A DNA stretch of 35,028 bases from Bacteroidota bacterium (GTDB lineage: Bacteria > Bacteroidota > Bacteroidia > Bacteroidales > JAAUTT01). The stretch's first letter is position 1; every line of letters begins with the position of its first letter. The position numbers and the translations under genes are program-made. The stretch covers positions 1 to 35,028 of the forward strand of contig JAJYAG010000058.1 of NCBI GenBank assembly GCA_021779665.1, given 5' to 3'. The notes beneath the pieces are model-generated. The model was not told where the DNA came from, did no database searches, and saw nothing but the letters and a program-made list of their open reading frames with translations. Below, in pieces: positions 15,832 to 19,564 of the stretch.

Positions 15832-16491
15832 ATGAAAAAGTTCTTCAATCTATTTTTAGTAATTACCAGTTTTTTGGTACAGGAAACATTTTCTCAAAGT
15901 CATCCTGTTGCGAGCAACGATTCGGCTTTAATAAAGCTTCTGGAAGGAAACGAAAGGTTCAGGACATTTAAACCAGTCCATCCAAACCAATCCGAAAATA
16001 CTCTTGCAACACTTTCGAAAGGGCAGCATCCGTTTGCTGTAATAGTTAGTTGTTCCGATTCCAGGGTCGCGCCAGAAATAATATTTGACCAGGGTCTTGG
16101 CGATCTTTTTATAGTGCGGGTTGCCGGGAATATTATTGATAATTTAGCTTTGGGAAGTATTGAATATGCAGTGGAACACCTAGGTGTAAAGTTAATTGTA
16201 GTGCTTGGCCACGAAAAATGCGGCGCTGTTGATGCAACTGTGAAGCATGCTGAAGCTCCGGGACATATTAAATACCTGGTTAGCCAGATTAAACCTGCAG
16301 TTGCCATTGCAAAAACTCAGCAAGGGGATTTACTGGACAACAGCGTGCGCGAAAATGTAAAACGGGTGGTTAAAGGTCTGGAAAACTCCAAACCGCTGCT
16401 TAAAGAATTATATGAACACGGGGAAATTGAAATTACTGGGGCTCGGTACGATTTGGACGATGGTAGTGTCAGTATCATTAAAACTAAATAA
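15832..16491 (+). CDS. exported beta-class carbonic anhydrase
   Basis: This 219-residue enzyme interconverts CO2 and bicarbonate. A Sec signal peptide ends around residue 22 (VQETFSQ), so the mature protein acts in the periplasm, unlike the usual cytoplasmic beta-type enzymes. Zinc ligands and catalytic residues are intact: C74, D76 and R78 in SCSDSRVAPE, then H127 and C130 in VLGHEKCGAV. Substrate-pocket features RVAGN and GSIEYAVEHLGV are present. It starts 29 bp after the Cache/PAS kinase gene and is probably co-transcribed with it. That pairing invites the idea that the neighbouring sensors follow CO2 or bicarbonate, but this is inferred from position only. Confidence 0.95.
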   Translation: MKKFFNLFLVITSFLVQETFSQSHPVASNDSALIKLLEGNERFRTFKPVHPNQSENTLATLSKGQHPFAVIVSCSDSRVAPEIIFDQGLGDLFIVRVAGNIIDNLALGSIEYAVEHLGVKLIVVLGHEKCGAVDATVKHAEAPGHIKYLVSQIKPAVAIAKTQQGDLLDNSVRENVKRVVKGLENSKPLLKELYEHGEIEITGARYDLDDGSVSIIKTK

Positions 16492-16767: not shown

Positions 16768-17409
16768 ATGTGTAAAGACTGCACCAATGTAGAAATGGGG
16801 TTTACGTCCGACAAATTTCCGCGGGGTACCCATATGTGTTACATTTATAATGATGACGAGGAAAGAGAAGCTATCATTTCAAAATTTCTTGGCGCCGGTT
16901 TAAAGGAAAATGAAAAGGTGGTTTACTTTGCCCATGAGAAGAATAAACCGGAAATGCTCGATATGATGGGCAAGGAAGGCGTTGAGCTTTCGGGTGAAGA
17001 ATTGGACCATTTTTTTGTTGCCAAAGCAATGGACACTTATTGTCCAACTGGTAAATTTGAGCTTGAAACGATGGTCGACGGACTGACAGGTTTTTATCAG
17101 GGAGCAATTGCCGAAGGATACTCCGGAGTAAGGGTAAGCGGCGAAATGCAGTGGGCCCTTGAGCACAAACCCGGTACCGAACGACTTATGGAATATGAAT
17201 CTCTTGGCGATATTGTTTTGAAACCTAATCCACTCACCCTCATTTGTCAGTACGACGCCCGCAAATTCGACGGTGCCACCCTTCTTAATTGCCTTAAAGT
17301 GCATCCCTATATGATAGTACGTGGTCAAATTGTACAAAATCCATATTATATGACACACGAGGAATTTATGGAGGAGTATAGAAAAAATGGAGGAAGCGGG
17401 GAAAAATAA
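16768..17409 (+). CDS. MEDS-domain (DcmR-type sensory) protein
   Basis: This 213-residue soluble protein is almost entirely a MEDS domain, the methanogen/methylotroph sensory domain first noted in DcmR. Diagnostic stretches are [14 protein letters not shown] (21-34), the central [12 protein letters not shown], and the C-terminal [20 protein letters not shown] followed by [16 protein letters not shown]. The N-terminus begins MCKDC, a CxxC pair. MEDS domains are thought to sense small molecules or redox state, and they often work with a histidine kinase. Here the next gene, a hybrid kinase, begins inside this one with a 23-nt overlap, so the two are translationally coupled and very likely act together. 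It has no DNA-binding or kinase domain of its own. Confidence 0.88.
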
Positions 17410-19564
17410 CGAAATAGTACGGGCGCTTAATCAGATATTGGCCGCTGGAAATGTTGTAAATGCAATTCCAATGGGTGAAAAGTTATGCGAGTTTCTTTAC
17501 ACCGCCATGAAAAGTATTCATGGGGTGGATCGATGCCGGATTTGTTTTTTCAATTTAAACGAACCTTTTGGCGATGCGTTATTAAACGATTGTAATGAAT
17601 GCTCTTTTTTTACCGGGCAGAACCAATGTAATAGAAAAGAAGATATAGGTGGATCGACTAAGGTTTTCAAAATATCGACTTTTCATGCAAAGTATGCCAT
17701 TATAAATTTGTCCACCAATAAGGATTTTTTGACTGAGCTTATACCGGCTATTCAAAACCTGGCTAATATTACGGCAGTTACCATCGAAAATAATTTACAA
17801 AAGATTGCATTAAAAAAGAGCAATATTGAATTACAGTTGCATAAAGAGCAGCTCGAAAACAAAGTATTGGAACGCACTCAGCAGCTCCAGGAATCTAACA
17901 GACGTTTGTCACGGGTTGTTAAAATCCTGAACGAGGCCCAGGCCGTGGCTCATGTTGGCCATTGGGAGCTGGACCTTAACACCGGTGGCTTATTCTGGTC
18001 CGACGAAGTTTATAAAATATTTAAAATCGACCCTTCAGATTTCGGAGGCCGTATACAGGATTTTACTGACCATATTCACGAAGAAGACAGGCAGTTTGTT
18101 ATGGAAACTTTTCAAAATGCAATTCAAAACAGGTTGGCTTATAATATTGAGCACAGGCTTTCATCAAACGGCAACGACCAAACATGGGTTCAGGAAATCG
18201 GGCGCATTGAATACGGTGAAGACCAGTTACCCTTGCGTGCTGTTGGAATGGTCCTGGATATTTCCAATCGTAAAAAATCGGAATTGTTAATCATGGAAAG
18301 CGACAATAAACTTAAAAATCAAAATAAAAAACTTAACCAGTTGGTAAAAGAACAGGTTGAAGCTAACAATAAAATTAACCGGATTAACCTGGAATTAAAA
18401 TATGCGAAAGAGAAAGCTGAGGAAAGTGATAAATTAAAAACTGCCTTTTTGCATAATATTTCGCACGAGATAAGGACACCTATGAACGCCATCATTGGTT
18501 TTTCAGGTTTTTTAAACGACCCGGATTTGGATGTGGAAAAGAGGGGACATTTTATTGAGATCCTGAACCAAAGCTGTTTTCAGTTGCTTGGGATCATCGA
18601 GGACATTGTAAGGATAGCCTCCATAGAATCGGGGCAGGAAAAAGTACGTGACAATCAGGTGAATTTGAACTTTATTACAAAGATCATTTTTAACCAGAAT
18701 GCTGCGAAAGCAAAAGCCAAAGGGTTGGATTTCTATTTTGAAAATGCTTTACAGGATGTTGAAGCTGAAATTATAACCGACAGGACAAAACTTGAACAAA
18801 TTCTTACTAACCTGGTTGGCAATGCTTTAAAATTTACATCAATGGGATTGGTAAAATTCGGTTACGAACTTGTTGATGACCATATCCGGTTCTTTGTAGA
18901 GGATACTGGAATCGGAATACCTTTAAACATGCACCAGGAAATTTTCAAACGCTTTCGACAGGTTGAGACCGATGATACCCGTAATTTTGGCGGTTCAGGA
19001 TTAGGTTTGACATTGTCCAAGGGGTATGTGGAATTACTTGGCGGCCAATTATGGGTTAAATCCGAGCCAGGCGCGGGTTCTGTCTTTTATTTTACTATCC
19101 CGTTTCGCCGACTCGCAATGAGTAAAAGCAAAAATGATTTTTCATCGCTAAAACCCGTTTTGTCTTCAAATTTGAAAACCATTCTTGTTGTCGAAGATGA
19201 GGACCTTAATTATTTATATATTCAGGAAATATTTTCTCAACAGGAAAATCATATTAAGGTTATAAGGGCAAGTAATGGAGAAGAGGCCATCAATATATGC
19301 AGGGAAATCAATGATATTGATTTAGTATTGATGGATCTGAAAATGCCTGTAATGGATGGATTTGAAGCGTCCAGGAAAATTAAGGAGTTCAGGCCACAAC
19401 TGATTCTGATTGCACAAACAGCGTACTGGTCCGATCAGGATAAATCAAAAGCGCTTGAAAGCGGATGTTCTGACTTTATATCCAAGCCTATTGACAAAAA
19501 TGCTTTAATAAATATTTTGAATAATTACCTTACCCATAGGGAGATTTCACAGAGGTGGCCATAG
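17387..19564 (+). CDS. soluble hybrid histidine kinase with Cys-rich N-terminus (GAF-like, PAS, HisKA, HATPase_c, REC)
   Basis: This 725-residue protein has no membrane span. The first 140 residues look GAF-like and carry a cysteine cluster, C50-x2-C53, C69-x2-C72 and C81, suited to binding a metal or Fe-S centre or to thiol sensing. A coiled coil (about 138-175) leads to a PAS domain (180-295, [20 protein letters not shown]). A second coiled segment precedes HisKA with H360 in [16 protein letters not shown] and HATPase_c ([33 protein letters not shown]). The C-terminal receiver has D650 in [12 protein letters not shown] and K700 (FISKPID). The start at 17387 lies inside the MEDS gene, indicating coupled translation. 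With no output domain, phosphate presumably moves on through an unlinked phosphotransfer protein. Confidence 0.93.

Follow-up and report, generated by a model that had tools for sequence, protein, structure and literature searches.

The locus described here raises a simple question: do two overlapping genes, one for a MEDS protein and one for a soluble hybrid histidine kinase, encode the two halves of a single sensor? They lie on the + strand of contig JAJYAG010000058.1 from a Bacteroidota bacterium (assembly GCA_021779665.1), and the whole stretch of 35,028 nucleotides (nt) that was analysed is referred to below as the window. An earlier note, made from the sequence alone, had proposed a two-part soluble sensor in which cysteines near the amino-termini of both chains may together bind a metal, an iron-sulphur (Fe-S) cluster or a thiol ligand. 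Its description of the locus was exact, both for the two open reading frames (ORFs) with their 23-nt overlap (Table 1) and for the kinase cysteines C50-x2-C53...C69-x2-C72...C81; C34, a sixth amino-terminal cysteine, went unmentioned. The feature that it saw is real, and the pairing is stronger than the note could know. Using the name GAFX, which we coined for residues 1-150 of the kinase, we found a MEDS gene directly upstream of 39 of 44 GAFX domains, across six named bacterial groups, and as a conserved genetic unit the two-part soluble sensor is well supported by this gene order. We consider it probable that the MEDS protein is a receptor acting in trans on the GAFX kinase, with the cysteines of a GAFX loop as an extra metal or redox input.

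The linkage was established from both sides. Querying genome contigs with the MEDS protein gave 18 loci, 12 of which are close relatives at 39-53% identity (L002-L013 in our numbering), and a GAFX protein accompanies the MEDS gene in 11 of these 12. At L012 the GAFX protein terminates a MEDS tandem that includes the matched copy, and at L010 it is divergent from MEDS. The converse search used a nine-row GAFX alignment and covered 395 genomes of the window's phylum, the 13 locus genomes, 198 genomes of the L009 phylum, 297 of the L013 phylum, 199 of the L007 phylum and 201 of the L005 order; in the window's phylum 30 loci were taken and 22 weaker matches left out. After removal of redundancy these searches left 37 domains scoring 50 bits or more, and 34 of them have a same-strand MEDS gene directly upstream, with the divergent arrangement in L010. 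A 12-row GAFX profile, run on 188 genomes of the L003 phylum and 52 of the L010 phylum, added seven further domains, five with MEDS directly upstream, bringing the total to 39 of 44 and one more with the divergent neighbour. When the window and the 11 loci found through MEDS are excluded, the figure for domains that came from the GAFX searches is 28 of 32. No MEDS match was present in a contrast set of 28 weaker GAF-like loci (L024-L050 and L065, about 1.5 kb on each side). The pair was found in Bacteroidetes, Myxococcota, Methylococcaceae, Nitrospirae, Aminicenantes and Desulfarculaceae, and additionally at L010. Duplicates were removed (L001 and L020, copies of the window; L051-L061, second copies of L002-L013 loci), and L015 and L017 (broken MEDS), L008 (no GAFX) and L014, L016, L018 and L019 (DcmR-type) stand outside the GAFX counts.

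The two families also occur together genome by genome. Among the 201 genomes of the Methylococcus order, 16 have MEDS (E up to 1e-20), 17 have GAFX (E up to 1e-6) and 16 have both, and among 188 genomes of the L009 phylum ten MEDS proteins of stand-alone size fall in five genomes, all five of which contain GAFX. Several MEDS genes can accompany one kinase. In two Nitrospirae metagenome-assembled genomes four MEDS genes flank a single GAFX kinase (L011:3615-7469 and L012:4971-8838), and at L125:2015-3357 (- strand, in a genome of the L003 phylum) two tandem MEDS genes, both keeping the key histidines and cysteines, precede one GAFX kinase. The upstream MEDS copy nearest the kinase is frame-broken in both L011 and L012, by an in-frame stop in one and by split frames in the other. 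In our MEDS alignment L011 and L012 are represented by these broken, kinase-adjacent copies, and L125 by its farther tandem copy, the nearer one having the same key residues. At L017:3412-4395 the first ~50 MEDS residues, which start CKNC, continue in-frame into a kinase-like protein, either a natural truncation or an assembly error.

The overlap between the two genes, whose conservation among homologues the earlier note had put forward as a check, proved to be variable. Across 34 pairs the distance from the MEDS stop to the GAFX start ranges from -20 to +174 nt, and is at most 6 nt in 18 of them, which rules out the overlap as a conserved device.

What kind of receptor might the MEDS protein be? 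All of the Pfam model for MEDS (PF14417, positions 1-161 of 161) is covered by a match with E 8.5e-40 and 136.7 bits (cut-off 29.8), and no other family exceeded the Pfam cut-off in the 213 residues. The predicted structure (21 sequences) has a predicted local distance difference test score (pLDDT) of 93.8 and a KaiC/RecA-like fold; its best match in the fold comparison was 8fwj_A (Z 15.1, root-mean-square deviation (rmsd) 3.2, 176 residues aligned), with KaiC-type structures among the matches at Z up to 15.1 and the SasA-KaiC complex 6x61 also among them. A search of the PDB with the single protein gave no match, and one with a MEDS profile gave SSO2452 as the best (E 0.00086) and KaiC at E 0.0024. 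The Walker A pattern G....GK[ST] is absent from the window MEDS protein. In a table excerpted from PMC5847659 the family is labelled 'MEDS (iKaiC)', which we take to mean an inactivated KaiC, and this would agree with the predicted RecA-like fold and the missing Walker A motif. When four DcmR-type proteins are aligned as well, H22, C160 and H179 are invariant and C24 is nearly so, and we propose these four residues as a putative ligand-binding site. Excerpts of PMC11507031 and PMC8784404 put forward C1/C2 compounds as MEDS ligands in general, and by analogy the ligand here could be one of these.

The domain that follows MEDS on the genome has no name in the databases searched. No Pfam or NCBIfam model reached its cut-off in residues 1-150 of the window kinase, NCBIfam giving nothing below E 0.05. 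The predicted GAFX model (12 sequences; pLDDT 86.3, predicted template-modelling score 0.80) has solved GAF domains as its best fold matches, led by 3cit_A (Z 11.7, rmsd 3.5, 139 residues aligned), and GAFX is thereby predicted to be a domain with a GAF-type fold. On 12 GAFX members the Pfam GAF models stayed below cut-off, GAF_3 appearing in 2 of the 12 with a best E of 0.025, and a PDB search with the GAFX profile was weak, giving the mitochondrial ribosomal protein mL48 (E 0.0022) as the best match and 3e0y at E 0.011. A relationship to PocR was considered and found no support (hhalign probability 0.2, one PocR sequence).

Beyond GAFX the window protein has the parts of a hybrid histidine kinase, namely an H-box histidine, an HATPase_c domain and a receiver aspartate (Table 1). 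The outputs differ between relatives: in the 28 GAFX proteins (of the 44) scanned with Pfam, 25 have HATPase_c and three have HD_5, and eight of the 28 carry a fused receiver. The three HD_5 proteins (L005, L115 and L124) are all of one lineage, and their HD_5 domain is terminal, replacing HATPase_c. The outputs are exchangeable: MEDS and GAFX stay constant while the kinase or HD_5 part varies.

Several observations concern the surroundings of such pairs. Methylococcus-lineage MEDS-GAFX-HD_5 pairs lie at L005:2684-4918, L114:4627-6399, L115:4634-6400 and L124:2-1744, and the gene directly upstream of them encodes an E1-E2 P-type ATPase in L124, the genes at the other three loci looking similar by sequence. 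A receiver-PAS-GGDEF-EAL gene comes after the pair at L121:385-2472 (- strand) and, besides the HD_5 outputs, gives another link to cyclic-di-GMP; at L109:3-2366 (- strand) the following gene is of PocR-PAS-kinase type, PocR being a sensory domain described alongside MEDS.

Table 1. Position of the MEDS-kinase pair and its features in the window
Feature	Coordinates	Strand	Basis or remark
MEDS gene	16768..17409	+	ORF of 213 residues, start MCKDC
MEDS H22-M-C24, near-invariant	16831..16839	+	H22 in 38/38 and C24 in 37/38 alignable paired MEDS
MEDS C92	17041..17043	+	kept in 31/40; first-ranked MEDS column in co-occurrence with the cysteine loop of the kinase, suggestive
MEDS C160, invariant	17245..17247	+	40/40; also in the four DcmR-type rows of the alignment
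MEDS H179, invariant	17302..17304	+	40/40
GGAGGAG, Shine-Dalgarno-like, within the MEDS gene, 5' of the kinase ATG	17370..17376	+	sequence
Overlap of MEDS 3' end and kinase 5' start	17387..17409	+	23 nt
Hybrid histidine kinase gene	17387..19564	+	725 residues, GAFX-PAS-HisKA-HATPase_c-REC, soluble
GAFX domain, kinase residues 1-150	17387..17836	+	GAF-like predicted fold, homologues
Cysteine strand and loop, kinase residues 50-81 (C50, C53, C69, C72, C81)	17534..17629	+	
PAS_3, residues 202-288	17990..18250	+	Pfam
HisKA, residues 351-416, H-box SHEIRTP with H360	18437..18634	+	Pfam and motif
HATPase_c, residues 465-574	18779..19108	+	Pfam; ATPase motifs present
Receiver, residues 599-711, phospho-acceptor D650 by motif	19181..19519	+	Pfam (Response_reg) and motif

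In the window the pair is preceded by genes for a Cache-PAS kinase and a carbonic anhydrase (PF00484, window 15832-16491, with a leader-like amino-terminus), the latter just 5' of the MEDS gene, and the long ORFs downstream of the pair are on the - strand. The genome of the window (305 contigs) holds a single MEDS match, and plasmid records gave no match to the kinase amino-terminus.

We then considered the cysteines, which lie at residues 34, 50, 53, 69, 72, 81, 397, 638 and 694 of the kinase. Across 37 GAFX domains cysteine makes up 8.2% of the 45-90 region (144 of 1754 residues) as against 1.0% in the rest of the domain (42 of 4228), more than chance would give, and in the loop from 54 to 90 the commonest residue averages 22% in non-cysteine columns compared with 92% in the C69 column. 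As the loop is otherwise poorly conserved, its cysteines seem to be under selection, as would be expected of metal ligands. The proposal that the kinase cysteines bind a metal or thiol ligand is borne out in part: C53 is kept in 34 of the 44 domains, C69 in 35 and C72 in 22, and 21 domains have the full set of C53, C69, C72 and a C81-region cysteine, whereas C50 is present in 10. C72 and the C81-region cysteine tend to come as two, occurring together in 21 of the 37 domains, with C72 alone in none, the C81-region cysteine alone in six and neither in 10. Members of the Methylococcus lineage have two-cysteine forms, with C53 and C69 and without C72. Together with C50, the MCKDC start of the MEDS protein is the half of the cysteine argument that fails, as both of its cysteines are found in one of 38 alignable paired MEDS proteins, that of the window (L017, with its CKNC start, was left out of this count); for this reason a joint cluster of MCKDC and the kinase cysteines was rejected.

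The earlier note had held that loss of the cysteines in homologues that keep the gene pair would speak against a shared site, and this is partly what we observed. Six pairs (L013, L023, L126, L128, L132 and L133) have MEDS upstream and neither C53 nor a loop cysteine, L023 retaining only C50. The loop is long and cysteine-free in L013 and L023, and in the other four it has shortened from ~37 to 6-19 residues. In a tree of the 44 GAFX domains the state lacking both C53 and C69 takes six changes, on a topology with 14 of 41 inner branches firm and many long end branches. Since pairs without these cysteines keep MEDS, the loop cysteines are accessory rather than the core of the pair.

Whether the loop serves as a sensor at all is a separate matter. 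Zinc sites typically consist of a C-x2-C and a further pair of cysteines, and C69-x2-C72 with its two companion cysteines resembles one. The loop might thus be a structural zinc site, or a disulfide, that stabilises the GAF loop, leaving the MEDS ligand as the sole signal, and the retention of the pair where the loop is short and cysteine-free (L126, L128, L132 and L133) is consistent with such a role. However, the Methylococcus-lineage forms with C53 and C69 and no C72 misfit a full Cys4 zinc site, and the cysteine-bearing sensor kinases NreB, AirS and CSK bind Fe-S according to excerpts of PMC8774646, PMC4601167 and PMC6949291. A purely structural loop is possible, if on the unlikely side.

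A connection between the two chains may be reflected in C92 of MEDS: of the 34 pairs that have loop cysteines 30 retain it, compared with one of the six that lack them. Out of 212 MEDS columns it ranks first (p 0.001 before correction, p 0.025 once close relatives are thinned). The co-occurrence is not significant once corrected for the 212 columns, with other columns close behind, and we regard covariation of C92 with the kinase cysteine loop as suggestive. A more ambitious reading, which we put forward tentatively and consider doubtful, is that stand-alone MEDS proteins have in GAFX a specialised receiver domain, as yet undescribed, a hub with varied outputs on which one or several of them act in trans. 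MEDS, through C92, and the cysteine loop of GAFX would then have a single redox or metal centre that they share or gate, giving a ligand-and-redox coincidence detector.

The simpler scheme of a MEDS receptor and a GAFX kinase would operate as follows; the physical contact between MEDS and GAFX, the direction of signalling, the ligand and the metal are elements that we infer. Stand-alone MEDS, KaiC/RecA-like and without a P-loop, would act as the receptor, binding a small molecule via H22, C24, C160 and H179. In response to its ligand it would dock in trans on GAFX and shift the kinase between states, and in the window kinase GAFX and PAS would relay the state of MEDS to the phosphorelay from H360 to D650. 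In other species GAFX would signal instead to an HD_5 output or a plain kinase. In most relatives C53 and C69, joined in half of them by C72 and the C81-region cysteine, probably hold a metal or Fe-S centre, through which the same kinase could also sense redox or metal state as an optional input.

The roles might also be reversed, with MEDS, like NreA, a switch that puts the kinase into a phosphatase state and the cysteine-bearing GAF domain the primary sensor. The gene logic is the same in the staphylococcal system, where NreA is a separate receptor required for the phosphatase state of the Fe-S O2 sensor NreB (excerpted from PMC8774646). However, loop cysteines are absent in some MEDS pairs, so the cysteine GAF domain is not the primary sensor in every pair, and we judge this arrangement unlikely.

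A number of observations weigh against MEDS as the receptor of a GAFX kinase. L067 and L085 have no MEDS nearby, even when the sequence is followed ~6.8 and 7.8 kb upstream; none occurs in the stretch of L127 examined, and L134 has only a MEDS-like fragment. L008 has a close MEDS, but its genome gave no GAFX match at E 1e-6. The GAFX profiles were built on MEDS-linked members and may favour linked ones. The kinase amino-terminus was matched in none of the four other same-genus genomes searched; the MEDS-GAFX system is therefore dispensable, and the distribution of the pair seems sporadic, perhaps through horizontal acquisition. As for the cysteines, eight of the 44 domains have neither C53 nor C69 and in 15 the four-cysteine set is partial, so that the set cannot be essential to the pair, and confidence in the GAFX model is lowest at the loop, with a pLDDT of about 60 for residues 61-90. 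Finally, operon linkage can reflect nothing beyond co-expression.

This last point leads to the possibility that the genes are merely co-transcribed and that MEDS works elsewhere without touching the kinase. Neighbouring genes can indeed share regulation without contact, but MEDS tracks GAFX rather than any one output across the six named groups, and relatives fuse MEDS to PAS or kinase domains in chains that show no GAFX. Five such MEDS, besides those of stand-alone size, lie within long frames in the L009 phylum: L142 and L147, whole frames, have HATPase_c, and the other three have PAS, in two cases together with GAF, as far as the available sequence runs. GAFX was found in none of the five (two whole and three partial frames). 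That MEDS occurs in cis without GAFX and in trans with GAFX in these cases fits the prediction of a docking or receiver role for GAFX. The MEDS and GAFX distances are also correlated (Mantel r 0.869 for 34 pairs and 0.422 for 22 dereplicated pairs, with none of 2000 permutations as high in either), which shows that the two are inherited together, not that they touch. Co-transcription alone seems to us quite unlikely. Very improbable is a copper sensor in some lineages with C53 and C69 as a Cu(I) site, for which the upstream gene adjoining the L005, L114, L115 and L124 pairs, an E1-E2 P-type ATPase gene in L124, and their retention of C53 and C69 without C72 would speak, but which is confined to that one close-knit lineage and has no such gene adjoining the pair in the window.

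The pair thus combines familiar components with a partner domain that has no name, in a trans arrangement that is conserved. Our literature searches gave no description of a stand-alone MEDS paired with a GAFX kinase, although the founding MEDS paper (Anantharaman and Aravind 2005), which they did not cover, may mention it. The ligands of MEDS are poorly known, and a dedicated, co-expressible partner would offer a direct biochemical read-out for ligand screens, available in species with differing outputs, including an HD_5 protein. GAFX would provide a new annotatable domain for kinases whose front shows no named sensor, and natural pairs with four, two and no loop cysteines are a ready experiment on what the cysteine loop contributes.

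How does the pair compare with known systems? KaiC is a RecA-fold protein that works with the histidine kinase SasA, and a protein of predicted RecA fold beside a histidine kinase is what we see here. Unlike KaiC, however, MEDS has no Walker A motif, and GAFX is GAF-like whereas the SasA domain is thioredoxin-like. To the RsbA-type anti-sigma regulators (NF041045) there is a partial sequence likeness, over MEDS residues 117-205, at E 9.2e-15 and 54.7 bits, below the cut-off of 210. DcmR and the other MEDS regulators, including EtnR2 and MA2082, belong to the same family (PF14417; excerpts of PMC8784404 and PMC11784639), and the DcmR-type rows of our alignment have H22, C160 and H179 in common with the window MEDS. 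The DcmR-type loci L014, L016, L018 and L019, however, carry an amino-terminal extension before MEDS, judged by eye to be DNA-binding, whereas no DNA-binding region was matched above the Pfam cut-off in the window MEDS chain; and archaeal kinases such as MA2082 contain MEDS in cis, in the excerpt of PMC11784639, where here it is stand-alone and paired with GAFX.

In the histidine kinases AirS and CSK/Hik2 an Fe-S cluster is held by cysteines of the amino-terminal domain, which in CSK is a GAF domain (excerpts of PMC4601167 and PMC6949291). The AirS spacing is C-x7-C-x-C-x17-C (excerpt of PMC4601167), as against C53-x15-C69-x2-C72-x8-C81 in the window, in CSK only one of the two conserved cysteines proved important (excerpt of PMC6949291), and the excerpts of both papers mention no MEDS partner. 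The best functional parallel is NreA-NreB of the staphylococcal NreA-NreB-NreC system, in which a separate soluble receptor, NreA, controls a soluble kinase with a cysteine-bound cofactor (excerpts of PMC8774646 and PMC4601167), and the receptor gene lies beside the soluble kinase gene there as here, a likeness of gene arrangement only. By this analogy MEDS would take the place of NreA; yet NreA is a GAF protein and the NreB cysteines lie in a PAS domain, whereas here the receptor would be MEDS and the cysteines, spaced C-x15-C-x2-C-x8-C, lie in a predicted GAF-type domain, so that the pair is a parallel to NreABC and not a member of it.

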